DNA of 47,047 nucleotides from Microcaldota archaeon (GTDB lineage Archaea > Micrarchaeota > Micrarchaeia > Anstonellales > Anstonellaceae). The notes below the pieces were generated by a model. That model worked only from the letters and a program-made list of their open reading frames with translations. It made no database searches and was not told the origin of the DNA. Each line of letters begins with the position of its first letter. The first letter of the stretch is position 1. Made by a program: the position numbers and the translations under genes. This document shows, piece after piece, positions 15,329 to 27,347 of this stretch. The stretch covers positions 1 through 47,047 of the forward strand of contig JAGVWK010000044.1 in assembly GCA_018304295.1 (NCBI GenBank), read 5' to 3'.

Positions 15329-18028
15329 ATGCCCGCAGTTGCGATAAAGCCCATGGACAAGATGCGCCTGCGCGCCCTTATGGCGTCCGCGCAAAAGGAT
15401 TCGCAGCTTTGGGGCAGCGTGCTTGTATTTTTTGGCGCCCTTTTCCTCCTGCTTGCATTCCCTTTTTACCCAATATACATAGTGCCCCTCATCGCACTTG
15501 CAGCCGGCATTATTTCCTACAAAATAAGCTACATAGGGCTTCTTTTTTCCATGGTGATAACGCTCCCGGCAGTCGCATACCAGTCCCCGCACCTTGCATG
15601 GCTTTACCTTTTCCCAATCGCAGTAACGCTTTTTGAGATGTACGAAAACTGGCACATAATAGCGTTCCTCCAAGTTGTAATTTTCATGCCGTTTGCCCCC
15701 TTCCCTTTCTCGCTTCTCTCAGGCTTTATTTTCCTTGTTCTCGCATTGGGCGCGCTCATAGAGGGCTCAAAAAAATCAATCGCTCTTGCGCTTCCGGCAG
15801 TGCTTGTAATACTGCTCCTCTCCACGCTGTGGCTTGCGGAGAACGGCTCTTTCATGCCCCTCTCCCAAATCTCCCAGAATTACGGGCCTGCGCTTGCGGA
15901 ACTTTCGCACAACGCAAGGGAGGCAGCGCCCCTGCCCGACCTGCTCATGGCAACAGGCGGCTCGCTTGTCTCCATGCTTGACATGGGCATAATAAACGAT
16001 TTTGGCAGCCGAATACTCCCAAAGGTGCAGCAAAACCTCTTTACGCTTTTTGTGAGCGACAGCGCGGTTTTGCAGCTGGTTTCTTGGGGAGTTGCGCTTT
16101 TCCTCATTGGCTACCTGCCTGCGCGCTTTGAAAGCAAGCACAAGCAGGCAATCTCAAGCGCGGCACTTGTGCTCATACCGCTTGCAAACGTGCTCATAAG
16201 CTTCGCATACCCTGCAACCCCGTTTGATTTTTTTGTTTTCCTTTATCTTGCGCTTTCCCTTGGAATAATATATTTCATGGAAACAAACCACCTAAGCTTC
16301 AGCCGCGAGCGCTCCATAATGCGCGACCAAAAGTCAAAAGAGATGGGCTTGTCGGACCTCTCTTCCTCCGAAGGCGCGGAGTCCATGTCCGAAATAGGCG
16401 GCTACGAAGACGTAAAGAACGAGCTTTCCGAGTCCATAGTTTCTCCGCTTAAGCAGAAGGAAATCGCATACGCATACGGGATAAAGCCCCCAAACGGGAT
16501 ACTGCTTTTCGGGCCCCCCGGCACGGGAAAAACGCTCCTGATGCGCGCACTCTCAAAGGAGCTTAAAATCCCCTTCTACTACGTAAAAGGCTCAAACCTG
16601 CTTTCCGAGTGGTACGGGCAGTCCGAGCGCAATGTGTCCGACATTTTCAAAAAGGCGCGCAAGCAGGCGCCCTGCGTCCTTTTCTTTGACGAGATAGATT
16701 CCATAGGCAAGAAGCGCGACTCCTACAGCAACGACGACGTCGCACCGCGCATCCTGTCCGTGTTCCTTGAGGAGCTTGACGGCTTTAAGTCCCAGAACAA
16801 GGTAATCGTGATAGGCGCCACAAACGCACCGCAGCAGCTTGACCCGGCGCTCACCCGCCCGGGGCGCTTTGACAAGATAATCTACATGCACCTTCCTGAT
16901 GCGCCTGCGCGCGCGGAAATATTCAAGGTGCACATTTCAGGAGTGCCCCACGAGGCGGAGATTGATTTTGGCAAGCTTGGGCGCATCACGGAGCGCTACT
17001 CCGGCGCTGATATAAAGAACATTTGCACGGAGGCGACAAGGATGGCTGCGCGCGAGGCAATGGCGCAAAAAATGGTGGTGCCTTTGCGAACAGAGCACCT
17101 GCTTGCGGCGCTCAAGGCAATACGCCCCTCAACAACAATAGATTCCCTTGAGGAATACGAGAAATTCCGCCTTGACTTTGAAAGGCGCAGCGGAAAGGTT
17201 GAGCAAAAGCCCGAAGAAAGCGCACAAGCCGTGCGCTGGGAGGACGTTGCGGGGCTGGAAAAGGTAAAGCAATCCCTGCTTGAGGCAATAGAGATACCGC
17301 TCACCCAAAAAGGCGAGGCGCTGATGAAAAAATTCCGCATAAAGCCCTCAAAAGGATTGCTTCTTTTTGGTCCTCCGGGGTGCGGCAAAACAATGATAGT
17401 AAAGGCCGCCGCAAACGAGCTTAAATCCACTTTCCTTTCCATTTCAGGAGCAGAGCTTATGAAAAAGGGATATGGGAATTCCACCTCCATCCTCAAGGAA
17501 ACATTTAACCGCGCGCGCGAGCAGGCTCCGGCACTCATTTTCATAGACGAGATAGAAGCCCTTGCCCCAAGCCGCGACTATTCCTCATCCGCAGTGCTCA
17601 CGCAGCTGCTGCAGGAGCTTGACGGGGTAAAAGAGCTAAAGAATGTGATGCTTGTGGGCGCAACAAACAAGCCCTCCATGCTGGACTCCGCGCTCTTGCG
17701 CCCCGGAAGGTTTGACAAGATAATGTACATACCCTCTCCAGACATGCCCGCCCGCGAGCAAATCTTTGAGCAGAACCTCGGGCAGGAGGGCAAAGTTGTG
17801 GACATTGAAAAGCTTGCAACCGAAACAGAAGGCTATTCCGGCGCAGACATCGCCTCAATATGCCAAGAGGCAAAAATGGCGCTTGTGCGCGCGGAAATGG
17901 GGGGAAAGGAGGCGAGGCTCACGACCCAGTACGTTTTTTCCCTCATAAGCGCGCGCCGGCCTTCAATCACGAGGAAGGATTTGGCGGAATATGCGGCTTT
18001 CCTTGAGGAATACGGAGAAAGGAAATAG
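15329..18028 (+). CDS. Polytopic membrane protein fused to tandem AAA+ (CDC48-like) ATPase
   Basis: About 320 aa of hydrophobic helices at the N-terminus. D1: GPPGTGKT, LFFDEIDSIG, TRPGRFDK. D2: GPPGCGKT, IFIDEIEALAPS, LRPGRFDK. Confidence 0.92.
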   Translation: MPAVAIKPMDKMRLRALMASAQKDSQLWGSVLVFFGALFLLLAFPFYPIYIVPLIALAAGIISYKISYIGLLFSMVITLPAVAYQSPHLAWLYLFPIAVTLFEMYENWHIIAFLQVVIFMPFAPFPFSLLSGFIFLVLALGALIEGSKKSIALALPAVLVILLLSTLWLAENGSFMPLSQISQNYGPALAELSHNAREAAPLPDLLMATGGSLVSMLDMGIINDFGSRILPKVQQNLFTLFVSDSAVLQLVSWGVALFLIGYLPARFESKHKQAISSAALVLIPLANVLISFAYPATPFDFFVFLYLALSLGIIYFMETNHLSFSRERSIMRDQKSKEMGLSDLSSSEGAESMSEIGGYEDVKNELSESIVSPLKQKEIAYAYGIKPPNGILLFGPPGTGKTLLMRALSKELKIPFYYVKGSNLLSEWYGQSERNVSDIFKKARKQAPCVLFFDEIDSIGKKRDSYSNDDVAPRILSVFLEELDGFKSQNKVIVIGATNAPQQLDPALTRPGRFDKIIYMHLPDAPARAEIFKVHISGVPHEAEIDFGKLGRITERYSGADIKNICTEATRMAAREAMAQKMVVPLRTEHLLAALKAIRPSTTIDSLEEYEKFRLDFERRSGKVEQKPEESAQAVRWEDVAGLEKVKQSLLEAIEIPLTQKGEALMKKFRIKPSKGLLLFGPPGCGKTMIVKAAANELKSTFLSISGAELMKKGYGNSTSILKETFNRAREQAPALIFIDEIEALAPSRDYSSSAVLTQLLQELDGVKELKNVMLVGATNKPSMLDSALLRPGRFDKIMYIPSPDMPAREQIFEQNLGQEGKVVDIEKLATETEGYSGADIASICQEAKMALVRAEMGGKEARLTTQYVFSLISARRPSITRKDLAEYAAFLEEYGERK

Positions 18029-18402: not shown

Positions 18403-18789
18403 TCAAAAAACTATTGTTTTCACGGTCGTAAGCAGCCTGTTTTTCCGAAGCAGCGTGTCAAGCTCCGCAATCCTTTTTGCATCGTCGTGCAAAAGCCACA
18501 TCTCAATGCACTGATTGTGTATCACGTTGTGCATGCTTGTCATTATGCTGCTCTCAAACTGGTGCTTGAGGTCGTGCAGCCTCGGGTCTGTTGCATGGCG
18601 GTTTCCGACAACAAGTATCATTGCGTGCGTGTCTCCCTTTGCATCGGCGAGGCTTTTCTTCTCCACGCGCAAATTCGCAAGCGCTGCGCGCACCACCTCG
18701 GAACGGCTGCCCATTTTCATTGCAGCCCCAAGCTCCCCAAGTTCCGCAGCCTCCTCATCCGTAAGAGAAAAGCTCAATATCCTTGTCAT
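18403..18789 (-). CDS. nikR: NikR-like nickel-responsive regulator (RHH plus C-terminal Ni domain)
   Basis: N-terminal ILSFSLTDEEAAELGELGAAMKMGSRSEVVRAAL (RHH). C-terminal VVGNRHATDPRLHDLKHQFESSIMTSMHNVIHNQCIEMWLLHDDA matches the NikR His/Cys pattern. Confidence 0.85.
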   Translation of the reverse strand: MTRILSFSLTDEEAAELGELGAAMKMGSRSEVVRAALANLRVEKKSLADAKGDTHAMILVVGNRHATDPRLHDLKHQFESSIMTSMHNVIHNQCIEMWLLHDDAKRIAELDTLLRKNRLLTTVKTIVF

Positions 18790-18801: not shown

Positions 18802-18877
18802 TTAATAATCTTTTTTGCCCCCCTTCCCCGTCGCGCCCATTTTTCTTATTATTAACTTGTTGCGAAAATATTAATAA
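18802..18877. promoter_or_regulatory. Three TTAWTAA sites in the nikR/cbtB divergent promoter region
   Basis: TTAATAA 18802-18808, TTATTAA 18849-18855, TTAATAA 18871-18877 (start offsets 47 and 22 bp). Confidence 0.55.
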
Positions 18878-18929: not shown

Positions 18930-19118
18930 ATGAAACTTGCACACCATGAAATGAACCTGTTCGGGCACAAGCTTGAGTTTTCAGCCTCAATGCAGTTCGC
19001 AGCCCTCTCGGCATTGCTTTTCATTGCAATATACGCCGTCCTTTTCACGGCATTTCCCTCATTGCATGACGGCTTCCACGAGTTCCGCCATTCCTTTGGC
19101 ATAATCCCATGCCACTAA
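18930..19118 (+). CDS. CbtB-like small membrane protein (putative Co/Ni transport subunit)
   Basis: 62 aa, one TM helix, C-terminal LHDGFHEFRHSFGIIPCH resembling the His-rich tail of CbtB. aggagg just upstream. Confidence 0.7.
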   Translation: MKLAHHEMNLFGHKLEFSASMQFAALSALLFIAIYAVLFTAFPSLHDGFHEFRHSFGIIPCH

Positions 19119-19162
19119 ACGCAAAAGATGGCGCTTAAGTGGCTTATCAACAGGTAGATAAC

Positions 19163-19687
19163 ATGAAACAATTTGCACTGCTATCTTTTTTGCTGCTTGC
19201 CAGCCAGATGCTTGCCAGCCAGCTCTTTGCAGCCTCCTCCCTCGTGATAAGCGTGGAGCAAAAAGGCGAGCTTGTTGCTCACGAGGGGCATTTTGACGCA
19301 ACAATATACGCGCTTTCCCCTTCGGGCGCTCCAATAAAAAACGCGACTATCCGCGCGAGGCTGTGGCACTCTGACAAATACGGGCTTTTCACCTCCGACA
19401 TCCCATACGTTGACGGCATTATGGTGTTTGACATTGAAACGGCTGCCCCGGACGGCTCGCTGCACGTGGACGCAATGCTTCCGGTGCCGGGCACGTACGT
19501 GCTTGAGGCAGAAGGCTTTGACCCAAGCGGGCAATACGACCATGCGCCCTTTATGCAGGAATACGAAGTGGGGCAGCTGCCGCATAAGGAGCTTAACGGG
19601 GCAGTGCTGCTATGGTTCCTTTTCATGACAGGCTTTGCAGGCGGCTATTTCCTTCTTTCCAAGAAAGGTGAATCCCATGTCCAGTAA
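19163..19687 (+). CDS. Secreted, C-terminally membrane-anchored protein of the Ni locus
   Basis: Signal peptide MKQFALLSFLLLASQMLASQLFA, beta-rich domain, C-terminal TM GAVLLWFLFMTGFAGGYFLL. Start refined from the 19139 ORF. Confidence 0.65.
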   Translation: MKQFALLSFLLLASQMLASQLFAASSLVISVEQKGELVAHEGHFDATIYALSPSGAPIKNATIRARLWHSDKYGLFTSDIPYVDGIMVFDIETAAPDGSLHVDAMLPVPGTYVLEAEGFDPSGQYDHAPFMQEYEVGQLPHKELNGAVLLWFLFMTGFAGGYFLLSKKGESHVQ

Positions 19688-20264
19688 AAAAATATCCATC
19701 CGGTTTGCGCTGGTGGCATTTGCGCTGCTCTTCTCCCAGCTTGCATCTGCGCATCTTTCAGCAGAGGGCGCCCCAGCCGTCCAAGAAGGCGCACCAATGC
19801 ATTCTCTGCAAGGCGGCGTCGGGCAGGGCAGCGCTGAGATTTTCAGAATATACGCTTTTCCGGTGGCTGCGGCTGTTTCGCGCTCAAGCGAGTTCACGGT
19901 AAAATCCGCATCGGAGAATTTTTCCACGCTTTCTGCGCGCTTTGAAATAAGGATTGTGCAAACAGAGGACGAGCACGAGGTATTTTCCACAAGCATATAC
20001 GGGGAAAATCCGTCTTTCACCTATGCGTTCAATGACGGGTCCGAACACCGCATGGAAGCCACCATGGTTCCCCTTGACGCCAGCGCCCCAGCAACTTACA
20101 AATACCTGCTGGACGTGCAGCCCCAGCAGCCCACGCCAGAACTTCAGGCACGCGTGCTGCTTGCCCTTGCATGGGTATTTTTCACCGGCGCACTTATGGG
20201 CGTTTGGGCTGGCAATGCGCGCAAAAAGGCGCGCAAGCAAAGTGGTGCCAATGTACCAAATTGA
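19677..20264 (+). CDS. Secreted, C-terminally anchored protein with predicted mature N-terminal His
   Basis: Signal peptide MSSKKISIRFALVAFALLFSQLASA|HLSAEG, C-terminal TM VLLALAWVFFTGALMGVWA. Start refined from the 19635 ORF. Confidence 0.65.
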   Translation: MSSKKISIRFALVAFALLFSQLASAHLSAEGAPAVQEGAPMHSLQGGVGQGSAEIFRIYAFPVAAAVSRSSEFTVKSASENFSTLSARFEIRIVQTEDEHEVFSTSIYGENPSFTYAFNDGSEHRMEATMVPLDASAPATYKYLLDVQPQQPTPELQARVLLALAWVFFTGALMGVWAGNARKKARKQSGANVPN

Positions 20265-20796
20265 CACTCCATTTGCAGTGCGCTCAATAGAAAGCTCAAG
20301 CATTGCGCTTCGTGCAGCGTATTTTTGCGCATCCGCAAAAAAGCGCGAGTGGGCGCGCAAAAAGCTCATTGATGCAACTCTCGCGCACAGGGAAACCCTT
20401 GGCAGGCTGCTGCTTGTTGAGCCGCTTTTCATGCCATTGCAAATCGCCGGCATGGGCTTTGCGGTTGGGAATTGCACGCAGGCTGCAAAGGAGCGCCTCT
20501 CCCGAAATTCCACCCGGTGGAAATCCCTTGCGCGCACGTGGCTTGCGCTTCAAAAAACCTGCGCGCGCTTTGCAGCGCAAAGCGTGCATTCAAGCCCAAT
20601 GCGGCTTAGGAAGGCGTTTGCCCTTTTCCTCCTGTGCTCCTCATTTGCGCTTTTTTTCAGCACGCGCGCCTTGCGCCCTTCGCATTTCCTTGCAAAAAAT
20701 CCCCCACTGTGGGAAGGAAAAGCAAGCCCGCTGCATTTTGATTCGCTAAAATCCGTGCTGGGCGCAAAAGGCACTGGCGGAGGCGCTGCCATATGA
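20251..20796 (+). CDS. Hypothetical protein with one TM helix
   Basis: MYQIDTPFAVRSIESSSIALRAAYFC...MRLRKAFALFLLCSSFALFFS. Overlaps both neighbours (14 nt upstream, 4 nt downstream). Confidence 0.6.
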   Translation: MYQIDTPFAVRSIESSSIALRAAYFCASAKKREWARKKLIDATLAHRETLGRLLLVEPLFMPLQIAGMGFAVGNCTQAAKERLSRNSTRWKSLARTWLALQKTCARFAAQSVHSSPMRLRKAFALFLLCSSFALFFSTRALRPSHFLAKNPPLWEGKASPLHFDSLKSVLGAKGTGGGAAI

Positions 20797-22016
20797 GCAA
20801 AGAATTCCCATACAAAACAACGCAGGATGTGCCTGCCCCAAAAGAGCTCATTTCGCAGGTAATAGGGCAGCAAGAGGCAGTGTCCCTTGTGAGGCAGGCA
20901 GCCCTAAACCGCCGCCACCTTCTTCTTGTGGGCGAGCCGGGCACGGGAAAGTCCCTTTTGGGCAAGGCGCTTTCGCAGCTTCTTAAAAGCGGGGAGCTTT
21001 TTGACGTTGTGGCATATCCCAACGGCACAGAGCCCACAAAGCCGATAATAAGGCTGCTTCCTGCGGGCACTGCGCAGGAAACAGCAGCAGCCGGCTCTTC
21101 ATCCATTTCCCATTTGTTGCTTCTATTTGCCGCATTGCTGGCTGGCGCGGGCTTTCTGTGGTGGCTTAACAGCCACTACAGGGTAACCTCGGGGGAGCTT
21201 GTTGCCGCTATTTATACAAGCGCAGCAGCCGCAATGCTTTTTGCAGCGCTTCTTTTCGCATCATTTAAGCTAAAGCCTTCCGCTGGCGCAAAACCCGCGA
21301 TTTTGCTCTCCCATAAACGCGCAGCAGCCCCGTTTGTGGACGCAACGGGAGCAGCCGCAACCTCCCTGCTTGGGGACGTGCAGCACGACCCGTACCAGAC
21401 AGGCGGGCTAGGAACGCCCGCGCACGAGCGCATACAGCTTGGCCTCATGCACCGCGCACACGGTGGCGTGCTTTTCATAGACGAAATAGGCTCGCTGCCC
21501 GCCGGGGTGCAGCAGGAGCTTCTCACCGCATTGCAGGAGGGCAAATTCCCAATATGCGGGCGCAATCAGACAAGCGCGGGCGCAGGGATACGCACCGAGC
21601 CTGTCCCGTGCAATTTCGTCCTTGTTGCGGCAGGCAACATGGACGGCATGAAAGGCATGCACCCGGCGCTGCGCGACAGGATACGCGGCAACGGGTATGA
21701 AATACTCATGAAAACCCAAATGCCGGATACTGGGGAAAACCGCCTCCTGCTTTGGCAGTTTGTTGCGCAGGAGGTTCGCAACGACGGCAAAATACCCAAC
21801 TTTGACGCATCCGCAATGGGCGCATTTATTTCCTGCGCAAAAAAGCTTTCAAAAAAGAAAGGGATGCTCTCATTGCGGCTTAGGAACCTTGGCGGGCTGG
21901 TGCGCATAGCAGGGGATGCTGCCATTGCGGATTCCTCTCAATTCACAAGCGCAAGGCACGTATATTCCGCCTTTTCCCATTCGCGCTCCATAGAAGAGCA
22001 AAAACAGGGCGGTTAA
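20793..22016 (+). CDS. Membrane AAA+ ATPase of archaeal LonB type lacking the S16 peptidase domain
   Basis: LISQVIGQQEAVSLVRQAALNRRHLLLVGEPGTGKS, two-helix TM insert, APFVDATGAAATSLLGDVQHDPYQTGGLGTPAHERIQLGLMHRAHGGVLFIDEIGSL, LVAAGNMDGMKGMHPALRDRIRGNGYE. ORF stops after the ATPase lid. Confidence 0.9.
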   Translation: MSKEFPYKTTQDVPAPKELISQVIGQQEAVSLVRQAALNRRHLLLVGEPGTGKSLLGKALSQLLKSGELFDVVAYPNGTEPTKPIIRLLPAGTAQETAAAGSSSISHLLLLFAALLAGAGFLWWLNSHYRVTSGELVAAIYTSAAAAMLFAALLFASFKLKPSAGAKPAILLSHKRAAAPFVDATGAAATSLLGDVQHDPYQTGGLGTPAHERIQLGLMHRAHGGVLFIDEIGSLPAGVQQELLTALQEGKFPICGRNQTSAGAGIRTEPVPCNFVLVAAGNMDGMKGMHPALRDRIRGNGYEILMKTQMPDTGENRLLLWQFVAQEVRNDGKIPNFDASAMGAFISCAKKLSKKKGMLSLRLRNLGGLVRIAGDAAIADSSQFTSARHVYSAFSHSRSIEEQKQGG

Positions 22017-22024
22017 GAAGGCGG

Positions 22025-22099
22025 TTAATAACGATTTTTGCGCACTTTCCCCGAAGGCAACATCCGAGTGTTATTAACTTTGCCTAAAACTCTTATTAA
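22025..22099. promoter_or_regulatory. Three TTAWTAA sites upstream of cbiM
   Basis: TTAATAA 22025-22031, TTATTAA 22071-22077, TTATTAA 22093-22099 (start offsets 46 and 22 bp). Confidence 0.55.
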
Positions 22100-22121: not shown

Positions 22122-22784
22122 ATGCATATAATGGAAGGATTTTTGCCCCTTGAATGGTGCATTTTCTGGTATTTGCTTTCAGCGCCCTTTGTGCTGTGGG
22201 GCATAATGCAAACAGGGAAACTTTTTGCGCTCAAGCCGCAGCAAAAGATACTATTGGCAGTGAGCGGCGCATTCATTTTCGTGCTCTCCTCCCTTAAGCT
22301 GCCCTCCATAACCGGCTCTTCCTCCCATCCAACGGGCACGGGGCTTGCATCAATACTATACGGCCCTGGCATAAGCGCCTTCCTTGCAGCAATAGTGCTT
22401 GTTTTTCAGGCATTGCTTCTTGCGCACGGGGGCATCACCACATTGGGCGCAGACATATTCTCAATGGGCATAATGGGCCCCCTTGTTGCGTGGCTTGTTT
22501 TCAAGGGAAGCGCAAAACTTAATATTGGCTGGAAAGTGCGCATTTTCGCGGCAGCGCTGCTTTCGGACTGGATTACCTATCTCGTAACCTCCCTACAACT
22601 TGCGCTTGCATACCCCGGAGCAAGCCTTGTGCAGTCCTACATGACGTTTGCATCAGTATTCGCGCTCACACAAATACCCCTTGCAATAGCAGAAGGGATA
22701 CTCTTCCTTGTGTTCTTTGACTTTTTGCGCCGCGCAAAGCCCAAAATGCTCGCAGAGCTTTGCGGCGAGGAATTTGCGAAGTGA
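22122..22784 (+). CDS. cbiM: CbiM/NikM substrate-capture component of Ni/Co ECF transporter
   Basis: MHIMEGFLPLEWCIFWYLLSAPFVLWG, SGAFIFVLSSLKLPSITGSSSHPTGTGLASILYGP. Start refined to MHIMEG. Confidence 0.95.
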   Translation: MHIMEGFLPLEWCIFWYLLSAPFVLWGIMQTGKLFALKPQQKILLAVSGAFIFVLSSLKLPSITGSSSHPTGTGLASILYGPGISAFLAAIVLVFQALLLAHGGITTLGADIFSMGIMGPLVAWLVFKGSAKLNIGWKVRIFAAALLSDWITYLVTSLQLALAYPGASLVQSYMTFASVFALTQIPLAIAEGILFLVFFDFLRRAKPKMLAELCGEEFAK

Positions 22785-22788
22785 TAAT

Positions 22789-23094
22789 ATGGAACAACAA
22801 AAACAACAGCCACTCCCAATCCACCTTTACCTGCTCGCGCTGCTTGCAATCGTGGCGCTTTTTGCGCTTCCCTTTCTGCTCAACCCAGATGCGCAATTTG
22901 GCGGAGCTGACAATGCAGGCAGGGATTTGATTGCGCAGCAGGACCCCAATTACACGCCTTGGTATTCCTCTTGGTGGCAGCCCCCGCCCGAAACAGAATC
23001 CATGCTTTTTGCGCTCCAAGCCGCAATAGGCGCAATAATAATAGGCTACTTCATAGGGTATGAGCGCGGCAAAGCCGCAGGGGCGGCGAACTAG
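22789..23094 (+). CDS. cbiN: CbiN
   Basis: PDAQFGGADNAGRDLIAQQDPNYTPWYSSWWQPPPETESMLFALQAAIGAIIIGYFIGY. Confidence 0.92.
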   Translation: MEQQKQQPLPIHLYLLALLAIVALFALPFLLNPDAQFGGADNAGRDLIAQQDPNYTPWYSSWWQPPPETESMLFALQAAIGAIIIGYFIGYERGKAAGAAN

Positions 23095-23158: not shown

Positions 23159-23926
23159 ATGAAAGGAAGCGGCCTTGACTATTTTGCGCAAAAAAGCAGG
23201 GCGCGGGACTGGCCCCCTCTTGGAAAGCTCCTGCTTTGCGCCTGCCTTCTTGTGGGCTCGCTTCTTTCCTCAAATTTGCTCGCACCCGCAGCAGTTCTCA
23301 TAATCGGCATCTCCCTTCTGCTCTACTCCACAGGGGGGAAAATGCCCCGCGCCCTTCTTCTTGTGGAGGCAAACGCGATAGTATTGATAGCAATAGGGGT
23401 GCTTGTGATAACGCTGCTGCAGCCGGGCGAGCCTGCCTTCGCATACTCCTTATTTGGGATTTCAATTTCCCCAAGCGTGCAAGGGGTGCAAAACGCTTCA
23501 ATGGTGCTTATGCGCTCATTGGCAGGTTTTTTTGTGCTTATCTTTTTTGCCTCCTCAACCCCCATCTCCCACTTTGGCAAGTCCCTTTTGCAAATAGGGC
23601 TTCCAACGCACGCAGTTGAGCTCATAGTGCTTGTATATCGCTACTCTTTCATGGTAGTGGAGCTTGCGGCAGGAATGGCAACCGCAGCAGAATGCAGGCT
23701 GGGCTTTGCAGGGCTGCGCCGCACGCTCTCAACAACCGGGCTTCTCTCAGGCGGGCTTTTTTTGCGCTGCCTTGACTTTGCGGACAGGGCGCAAATAGCG
23801 CTTGAAAGCCGCTGCTTTAAGGGCTCTTTTCCAATATACCGCCTTCCGGCAAAACTTGACGCAAAATGGGTCGCCCTGTGCATTCTCATGCTCATTTGCC
23901 TTTATGCAATAGGAAAAATGCAATAG
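23159..23926 (+). CDS. cbiQ: CbiQ-type transmembrane component
   Basis: Polytopic. LIVLVYRYSFMVVELAAGMATAAECRLGF...FLRCLDFADRAQIALESRCFKG, ECF-T motifs. Confidence 0.9.
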   Translation: MKGSGLDYFAQKSRARDWPPLGKLLLCACLLVGSLLSSNLLAPAAVLIIGISLLLYSTGGKMPRALLLVEANAIVLIAIGVLVITLLQPGEPAFAYSLFGISISPSVQGVQNASMVLMRSLAGFFVLIFFASSTPISHFGKSLLQIGLPTHAVELIVLVYRYSFMVVELAAGMATAAECRLGFAGLRRTLSTTGLLSGGLFLRCLDFADRAQIALESRCFKGSFPIYRLPAKLDAKWVALCILMLICLYAIGKMQ

Positions 23927-23941
23927 GAAAAATATGAAAAT

Positions 23942-25321
23942 ATGGCAAAGAAAAAAGGTGTAAAAATGAACGCGCTTGAAACAAAAAACCTAAATTTCTC
24001 GTACGAGAGCGGCCAGGCCGCGCTCTTTAGCCTGTCCCTATGCATACAAAAAGGCAAAAAAACAGTCGTGCTTGGTCCCAACGGCGCAGGCAAAAGCACG
24101 CTCTTTTTGCATTTGAACGGAGTGCACCGCGTGCAAAGCGGGGAAGTCCTTTTTGAAGGCAAAAAAATTACATACGATTCCAAATCCCTTGCGCAGCTTA
24201 GAAGCAAGGTTTCCCTAGTGTTCCAAAACCCTGACGACCAGATTTTTGCTCCCACTGTGGAGGAGGATGTTGCATTCGGCCCTCTTAATTTGGGCTTGGC
24301 GCATGAAGAGGTGCAAAAGCGCGTGGAGGAATCCCTTGCGGCAGTCGGACTTGAGGAAATGAGGCAGCGCCTTACAAGCGCTCTCTCCTTTGGGCAGAAA
24401 AAGCGCGTTGCGCTTGCAGGCGCGCTTGCAATGGAACCACAAGTGCTCATAATGGACGAGCCAACGGCAGGGCTGGATTCGCAGATGGTGCACGAGCTCC
24501 TTGAGCTGTCCGAAGAGCTAAACCACGAGGGAAAAACAATAGTTATTTCCACGCACGACGTGGAAACAGCGTACGAATGGGCGGACGAAGTGATAGTGCT
24601 CAACAAGGGAAAGCTTGTTTTCAGCGGCACGCCTGACGGGCTTTTCTCACAGGCAGAGCTGCTTCACCCAATAGGGCTCACCCCTCCGCTTCTTTTTCAG
24701 CTAAACCATCAGAGGCATTTAAGGACAGGCGAGCCCGAGGCTCCCCGCCCGCATACCATTGCGGAGGCAGCCTCGCGCTTTTTCCAAATAAAAAGCTGGC
24801 AGCAGCCCAAACGCTCTTTGGAAGCCGCGTCCCGCCACACTTCCAGCGCCGCAGCGGAAGCCGCGTTTCGCCCAACTTCCAGCGCCGCAGCGCAGGATGC
24901 GCGGGGTGAAAAGGCAACGGACTCCGCCAATCCGCAGGGGGAAAGTGCAGCTCCGATCACCCATCCTACCGCAGGCGCATTGCATGCCGGAACACTTCAC
25001 ATAGTATGCGTGGATAAAATGGCTCCCATAGAGCCGCTTTCGCTTAAAATCCCGCACGAAAACTCCGGCATATACGGAATGGCAGCGCAGGAGCTTGCAA
25101 GCCGCTCCAAGATGCACTTCCACCACCGCTTCCACGCCCTTGAGCACGCGCTCCTTAAAACAAGCATGGGAGAGGATTTCGTTCTCTACTCGGATACCGC
25201 GCTCTGCTCCCTTGTGGAAAAAAAGGCAAGGCAATTCTCAAAGGCAAGCGGGCTTTCAATACCAATAGTGCATTTGCATTCGCAGCAAAAGGGCGGCAAA
25301 TGGGGAGGCAGCAACCTATAA
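23942..25321 (+). CDS. cbiO: CbiO-type ATPase with long linker and extra C-terminal domain
   Basis: LGPNGAGKSTLFLHLNGVHRVQSG, VFQNPDDQIFAPTVEEDVAFGPLNLGL, LSFGQKKRVALAGALAMEPQVLIMDEPTAGLD. About 180 aa beyond the ABC domain. Confidence 0.93.
   Translation: MAKKKGVKMNALETKNLNFSYESGQAALFSLSLCIQKGKKTVVLGPNGAGKSTLFLHLNGVHRVQSGEVLFEGKKITYDSKSLAQLRSKVSLVFQNPDDQIFAPTVEEDVAFGPLNLGLAHEEVQKRVEESLAAVGLEEMRQRLTSALSFGQKKRVALAGALAMEPQVLIMDEPTAGLDSQMVHELLELSEELNHEGKTIVISTHDVETAYEWADEVIVLNKGKLVFSGTPDGLFSQAELLHPIGLTPPLLFQLNHQRHLRTGEPEAPRPHTIAEAASRFFQIKSWQQPKRSLEAASRHTSSAAAEAAFRPTSSAAAQDARGEKATDSANPQGESAAPITHPTAGALHAGTLHIVCVDKMAPIEPLSLKIPHENSGIYGMAAQELASRSKMHFHHRFHALEHALLKTSMGEDFVLYSDTALCSLVEKKARQFSKASGLSIPIVHLHSQQKGGKWGGSNL
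24820..24891 (+). repeat. 36-bp tandem duplication (x2) in the cbiO linker
   Basis: Units 24820-24855 and 24856-24891, 32/36 identical, encoding EAASRHTSSAAA / EAAFRPTSSAAA. Confidence 0.85.
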
Positions 25322-26379: not shown

Positions 26380-26844
26380 ATGGACGAGCAACTAAAAACA
26401 ATTGAGGCGGCGCTTTTCATGAGCAGCCGCCCACTTACCGCTTTGGATCTTGGAAAGCTCATCGGGGTAGCAGCGCCCGGCTTTGTGGATGCAAAGGCAA
26501 AGGAGCTTATGGCAGAATACGAGAAGCTGGGCAGCTCCATAAAGGTCGCATGCGAAGGCGGGAAATACTACATGACTCTGCGAAGCGAATACGCAAAAGT
26601 TGCGCGGGATTTTGCAAAGGAGGCTGAGATAAGCAAGCACGCGCTCAAGACCCTTGCATACATAAACAAGTTCAACGGCATCACAAAGCGCGAGCTTTTC
26701 AGGAAACTTGGCAGCTCCATATATAACGACGTCGCAGAGCTTGCAGAAAAGGGCTTTGTGGAGCAAAAGCGCTTAGGTCGCTCAAAGTCCCTGCACACGA
26801 CGCAGAAGTTCAGGGAGTATTTCCAAGGCGACCAACAACTCTAA
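26380..26844 (+). CDS. scpB: ScpB-like condensin accessory protein
   Basis: DEQLKTIEAALFMSSRPLTALDLGKLIG...HALKTLAYINKFNGITKRELFRKLGSSIYNDVAELAEKGFVEQKRLGRSKSLHTTQKFREYF. Start refined to MDEQ. Confidence 0.88.
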   Translation: MDEQLKTIEAALFMSSRPLTALDLGKLIGVAAPGFVDAKAKELMAEYEKLGSSIKVACEGGKYYMTLRSEYAKVARDFAKEAEISKHALKTLAYINKFNGITKRELFRKLGSSIYNDVAELAEKGFVEQKRLGRSKSLHTTQKFREYFQGDQQL

Positions 26845-27089
26845 TTGGAATATGCTTCTTTTCTTTTCCTCACCCTGTAAAGTATCACGTCGTTTCCTCT
26901 CACTTCAAACACAATGCGGTAGCCAACCACTCTCTCACTGTAGCAGTTTGCCTCATGCTCAAGCGGCTTGGAAAGGCGGGGATTTTCTTTGAGCCTCTCA
27001 AGCTTTTTCTCAACAAGAAGCTTTACTGATTTGTCAAGCACCCGCAACTCTGCAAGGAACTTTGAAGTCGGGCAAAGCGCATATGCCAT
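26841..27089 (-). CDS. RelE-superfamily toxin
   Basis: AELRVLDKSVKLLVEKKLERLKENPRLSKPLEHEANCYSERVVGYRIVFEVRGNDVILYRVRKRKEAY. Confidence 0.82.
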   Translation of the reverse strand: MAYALCPTSKFLAELRVLDKSVKLLVEKKLERLKENPRLSKPLEHEANCYSERVVGYRIVFEVRGNDVILYRVRKRKEAYSN

Positions 27090-27347
27090 TTATTCGCCCC
27101 ACAGCGCCTTTTTTAGCTGTGCTTCAGTATGAAGTTTAAGCTTACCGGAAGCAATTTGCGCCCGTGCCTTGCGTATATATTCCAAATCTTCCTCATCTTC
27201 CCTGCGGTTTTGCATGAGCTCGTATTTATTGTTGAGTTCCACAACTCCAAGGCGTATTGCTTCTGCCTTTGTTTTTGCCAGTCCCTGTCTAACTGCTTCG
27301 GCTAATATGCGGTCTATCAGCCCTTCGAATTTCATCGTGGAATACAT
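27090..27347 (-). CDS. Antitoxin partner of RelE-like toxin
   Basis: MKFEGLIDRILAEAVRQGLAKTKAEAIRLGVVELNNKYEL, RHH-like. Immediately precedes the toxin. Confidence 0.65.
   Translation of the reverse strand: MYSTMKFEGLIDRILAEAVRQGLAKTKAEAIRLGVVELNNKYELMQNRREDEEDLEYIRKARAQIASGKLKLHTEAQLKKALWGE

Follow-up and report, generated by a model that had tools for sequence, protein, structure and literature searches.

Genetic organization of the lonB-S locus

The window analysed here, a stretch of 47,047 nucleotides, is one entire contig from the assembly of a micrarchaeon, which comprises 49 contigs totalling 1.05 Mb and is 84% complete. It carries a tight operon, cbtB-orfA-orfB-orfC-lonB-S, which is divergent from a nikR gene and adjoins cbiMNQO. 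The genes are assigned to one operon because orfA overlaps orfB, orfB overlaps orfC, and the stop codon of orfC overlaps the start of lonB-S (ATGA). The last gene, lonB-S (20793..22016, plus strand), begins with ATG, terminates with TAA and encodes a 407-amino acid LonB-type AAA+ ATPase that lacks the S16 peptidase domain; its boundaries agree with those of a first-pass annotation of this DNA.

The divergent nikR gene (18403..18789, minus strand) encodes a ribbon-helix-helix regulator of the NikR type (PF08753, 32 bits; PF01402, 22.5 bits; NCBIfam). The operon opens with cbtB (18930..19118, plus strand), which encodes a small cobalt/nickel transporter subunit (PF09489, 30.7 bits against a cut-off of 27), and continues on the same strand with orfA (19139..19687) and orfB (19677..20264), the products of which each possess a signal-peptide-like N-terminus and a C-terminal transmembrane segment. 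The next gene, orfC (20251..20796, plus strand), is a probable 181-amino acid open frame with a codon score of 0.344 for which no homologue was detected, and it is less certain than the other operon genes. Beyond lonB-S lie, all on the plus strand, cbiM (22122..22784; PF01891), encoding the S component of a Ni/Co ECF transporter, cbiN (22708..23094; PF02553), given here as the listed open frame although the true start is probably near 22783, cbiQ (23159..23926; PF02361) and cbiO (23942..25321; PF00005), which encodes an ABC ATPase with a C-terminal extension. Further along the window (26841-27347), two small adjacent minus-strand frames of 82 and 85 amino acids resemble a RelE-type toxin-antitoxin pair.

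In a genome of the same genus (G002), the order is hisS-trx-scpB-scpA-cbiO-cbiQ-cbiN-cbiM, then a divergent nikR, a gene for an 899-amino acid AAA protein and VIT1, and all of these genes are in the same order as in the window with 57-90% identity. The spacing between cbiM and nikR is ∼110 bp in G002 vs 3.3 kb in the window, where the interval holds cbtB, orfA, orfB, orfC and lonB-S. The simplest reading is that the block from cbtB to lonB-S represents an insertion in this lineage, loss elsewhere being the alternative. Six other genomes of the family possess cbiMNQO and none has a LonB gene beside it, so that a conserved pairing of LonB with cbiM can be rejected. The 899-amino acid protein, encoded at 15329-18028 of the window, is a membrane Cdc48-like ATPase that is hydrophobic near its N-terminus and carries two AAA domains, and its counterpart occupies the same place in the same-genus genome with 81% identity.

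Apart from the window's own, no CbtB was detected among 295 genomes of the class, and no convincing match to orfA was found in the same set. The product of orfA does match proteins encoded on cyanobacterial plasmids (E 1e-10). At four such loci (L121-L124) the match is a 390-amino acid, two-domain exported protein encoded directly after a small CbtB-like protein; heavy-metal or cation-transport genes lie beside three of the four, and RppA/RppB is found next to one, the Anabaena copy. The first half of the 390-amino acid protein is matched by orfA and the second, weakly, by orfB, and the two products joined match most of it (blastp E 8e-20 in a small set). In addition, the CbtB of the window ends in a His-rich stretch and CH, as do the cyanobacterial CbtB proteins. 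Judged by these similarities, cbtB-orfA-orfB resembles a bacterial (cyanobacterial plasmid) metal module in which the second gene appears to have been split, and the 390-amino acid protein possibly represents an undescribed family of CbtB partners.

Putative NikR operators

Upstream of cbtB is a NikR-like palindrome, TTATTAAC-N14-TTAATAA (18849..18877, no mismatches), and a second copy with one mismatch precedes cbiM (22071..22099), such that a putative palindromic operator of the NikR type is present ahead of both transcription units; only 0.05 matches are expected in the window by chance. The second copy lies within the ∼100 bp in front of cbiM that the first-pass annotation had characterized as promoter-like. 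When two mismatches are allowed, the palindrome occurs at four places in the genome, namely before cbtB and cbiM, at position 9914 of contig C10 and once on contig C11. The C10 site is located at the start of a gene for a ZIP-family metal transporter (named by eye from the sequence) and closely resembles the cbiM box along the spacer as well, beyond the palindrome arms. As a control, the pattern read backwards gave three matches in the genome, and hits with two mismatches are therefore weak on their own. One perfect copy lies between nikR and cbiM in G002. These elements, recognized by their pattern, are most readily read as operators that the regulator, a divergent NikR, would bind. The ZIP-like gene (L108:9900-10714, on C10) directly follows a gene for a BtuF-like binding protein, both named by eye.

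The locus has the transporter, regulator and putative palindromic operator of a CbiMNQO system under NikR control. Such systems are not known to include a LonB-type ATPase, and the cbiMNQO genes in the six family genomes differ from the lonB-S locus in having no adjoining LonB.

Structure of LonB-S

The membrane-bound ATP-dependent protease of archaea is LonB (TIGR00764; PDB 3k1j, 4zpx), which, like LonB-S, comprises an AAA+ module with a pair of transmembrane helices separating the Walker A and Walker B motifs, followed by the sensors and lid. The TIGR00764 model matches LonB-S with 429 bits (3.2e-128) over model positions 4-397 of 608, and residues 6-393 align with the solved Thermococcus LonB 4zpx (E 6.8e-109), with a core identity of 56%; the relationship to LonB therefore extends over nearly the full length of the protein. 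Identity to the LonB of its own genome is only about half. The ATPase motifs are intact, including Walker A (GEPGTGKS), Walker B (VLFIDE), sensor 1 (AAGN), the Arg-finger region (HPALRDRIRG) and sensor 2 (LRLRNLGG). Two transmembrane helices of a LonB-type membrane insert are predicted from hydropathy and the alignment with LonB (21099..21272, plus strand): the hydrophobic segments span residues ∼103-127 and ∼135-160, with hydropathy peaking at residues 104 and 136, and coincide in position with the membrane helices of LonB, including those of 4zpx. The earlier description of a protein that follows LonB from Walker A through the membrane insert to the lid is thus borne out. An AlphaFold model built from a six-sequence alignment was too poor (pLDDT 41.5) and was left unused.

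In contrast to archaeal LonB, LonB-S has no S16 Ser-Lys peptidase domain, scores below the TIGR00764 cut-off (429 vs 516.6 bits) and has GRNQ in place of GQSE in one conserved loop. The latter is among 13 altered positions of the 98 that are invariant over 42 full-length LonBs, the other 85 being retained.

The ATPase domain is also weakly similar to Mg-chelatase (Pfam 3.2e-12), which, taken with the metal-handling operon, raises the question of whether LonB-S acts like the MoxR/chelatase-type ATPases (NorQ, CbbQ, cobaltochelatase) and inserts nickel or cobalt into a target. Such a role is very unlikely, given that the match to LonB is far above any to a chelatase, that a vWA partner is absent among the neighbouring genes examined, and that a search of the genome found no nickel hydrogenase that might serve as the target. 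For the same reason, a nickel hydrogenase can be set aside as the use to which the metal is put.

Absence of the peptidase domain

All LonB proteases have been described as an ATPase and a protease domain joined in one protein (PMC4864567). LonB-S terminates four residues after SIEEQ, the end of the lid, at the point where the S16 half would begin and, correspondingly, where the TIGR00764 match stops. A six-frame search of the whole genome detected no Lon_C (S16) sequence on the lonB-S contig; both the position of the C-terminus and the lack of a downstream peptidase domain were proposed in the first-pass annotation and are upheld. Lon_C was found in only two places, a separate full-length lonB on contig C41 (a 742-amino acid open frame) and a gene on contig C42 (L061:8074-9828) for a signal-peptide S16 protein without an ATPase domain.

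A frameshift or assembly error concealing the peptidase domain, and a recent truncation in a genome with no other lonB, were the alternatives that the annotation had named. The first is rejected on codon statistics that are gene-like in the frame of lonB-S only and by the lack of Lon_C on the contig. As to the second, the genome does possess a lonB, on C41, and a recent origin of LonB-S from the LonB of its own genus is rejected by the AU test (p 0.006). That LonB-S is known from a single example could suggest a truncated relic or an artefact, but the open frame is intact and keeps every motif, it ends exactly at a domain boundary, and the gene sits mid-contig between flanks that are syntenic with the same-genus genome, making this explanation highly improbable.

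The presence of a full-length LonB bears on a further possibility, which we regard as the main rival to the interpretation favoured below, namely that LonB-S is a regulatory subunit which tunes or redirects proteolysis when nickel or cobalt is scarce, either by forming mixed hexamers with LonB or by delivering proteins of the metal system to it. Retention of the membrane insert and of 85 of the 98 invariant positions would permit a compatible ring; against this, the two proteins share only about half of their residues and the 13 changed positions include the GQSE to GRNQ replacement. On balance, this partnership is rather unlikely.

Relationship to a zinc-ribbon paralog

Nearly every genome of the family encodes, in addition to full-length LonB, a LonB-like protein of 468-534 amino acids that has no S16 domain (for example, L049:145-1563, L043:9307-10725 and L034:5896-7419). 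Alignments show that in this paralog the place of the transmembrane helices is taken by a zinc ribbon, the four cysteines of which are invariant, and that a conserved C-terminal tail (YGSxxKAxxxD...) follows the lid. With a profile on which members score at least 448 bits and LonBs ∼350 or less, it was detected in 118 of the 295 class genomes, one partial match at 340 bits being ambiguous, and in none from two large families (f13 and f17). In several relatives the genes beside it include DUF2070 and NMD3, and some genomes have a gene for a HerA-type ATPase there. An S16-less LonB as such is therefore not unique to LonB-S; the zinc-ribbon paralog is ancient and widespread in Micrarchaeota, where the uncoupling of LonB pulling from cutting is accordingly old and common.

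LonB-S shares with this paralog a LonB-type ATPase without S16 as well as GRN and other residues, and trees place the two together, with the long-branch reservation given below. It differs in having transmembrane helices rather than the four-cysteine ribbon, in lacking the conserved C-terminal tail and in lying beside cbiM rather than the DUF2070, NMD3 or HerA-type genes. On the zinc-ribbon profile it scores 285 bits, the same as full-length LonBs, and both anatomy and score reject its classification as an ordinary zinc-ribbon paralog.

In ATPase-core trees LonB-S is placed with the S16-less clade (98/98), also when Thermococcus and Natrinema are added (99/95), on a long branch of 1.5-1.6 changes per site. 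GRN and L305 are common to LonB-S and this clade, where LonBs have GQS and Y305. Long-branch attraction may account for the grouping, as may convergence once the peptidase was lost. A long branch along which the motifs have been kept argues for long selection for the ATPase function of LonB-S.

These results, and the apparent absence of the zinc-ribbon paralog from the host genome as assembled, set against its presence in 18 of 19 relatives in the family, would be consistent with LonB-S being a transmembrane-bearing survivor of an ancient S16-less lineage that performs the same general job as the zinc-ribbon paralog, its place in the operon being secondary. We consider this unlikely: long branches tend to meet, the AU test does not firmly reject an origin within the micrarchaeal LonBs (p 0.059), an assembly that is only 84% complete may just lack the paralog, and lonB-S lies in an operon setting particular to metal uptake.

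No second LonB-S and no second such operon was detected in ∼300 micrarchaeal genomes (class and phylum sets). Exact-peptide searches of 85,462 species genomes revealed no protein of this type outside Micrarchaeota. Two apparent additional candidates (G287:C13 and G079:C79) are ordinary LonBs that run off the ends of their contigs. An origin as a mobile element or phage gene was rejected, as there was no match in phages or viral contigs; LonB matches on plasmids were to full-length haloarchaeal LonB only. We found no description of an S16-less LonB in the literature.

Possible role of LonB-S

LonB-S is a membrane-anchored LonB-type motor without a peptidase domain and with complete ATPase motifs, and it may act as an unfoldase or assembly factor. 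The explanation we favour, tentatively, is that it is the motor of a nickel/cobalt operon controlled through NikR boxes, made when nickel or cobalt is limiting, and that it remodels an uptake subunit without cutting it. Transcription of lonB-S would be under the control of NikR and raised at nickel or cobalt limitation, the protein would assemble as a ring at the membrane, and by ATP-driven pulling it would act on a membrane or exported uptake subunit, remodelling, assembling or extracting it while leaving it undegraded. Candidate clients are CbtB and the products of orfA and orfB, or CbiMNQO; the former could equally be the client, as lonB-S follows cbtB and two genes with export signals.

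Counting for this explanation are the palindromes before cbtB, cbiM and the ZIP gene, the tightness of the operon and the CbtB-linked relatives in cyanobacteria. Counting against it are the occurrence of LonB-S in one genome only, the six family genomes that have cbiMNQO and no lonB-S, and the fact that neither a nickel hydrogenase in the genome nor a homologue of orfC was found. The earlier proposal of a LonB repurposed for the nickel transporter consequently holds in part: a non-proteolytic LonB with intact ATPase motifs is linked to nickel and cobalt by its operon and the NikR-like operators, whereas the specific linkage to cbiM is not conserved in the six family genomes. A composite scheme, in which LonB gave rise to a nickel-regulated membrane remodelling motor for CbtB/CbiMNQO that is at the same time a transmembrane-bearing remnant of the ancient S16-less branch, seems doubtful.

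If correct, the favoured explanation would mean that a protease-less LonB maintained by selection and tied to metal uptake separates the pulling activity of LonB from cutting, and the co-operonic genes together with CbiMNQO would provide a small, defined set of possible clients for studying how archaea remodel membrane proteins. A non-proteolytic role is described for BrxL of BREX, a Lon-related AAA+ protein (PMC10164562). BrxL is a DNA-binding phage-restriction factor and, unlike LonB-S, is not a membrane-anchored LonB.
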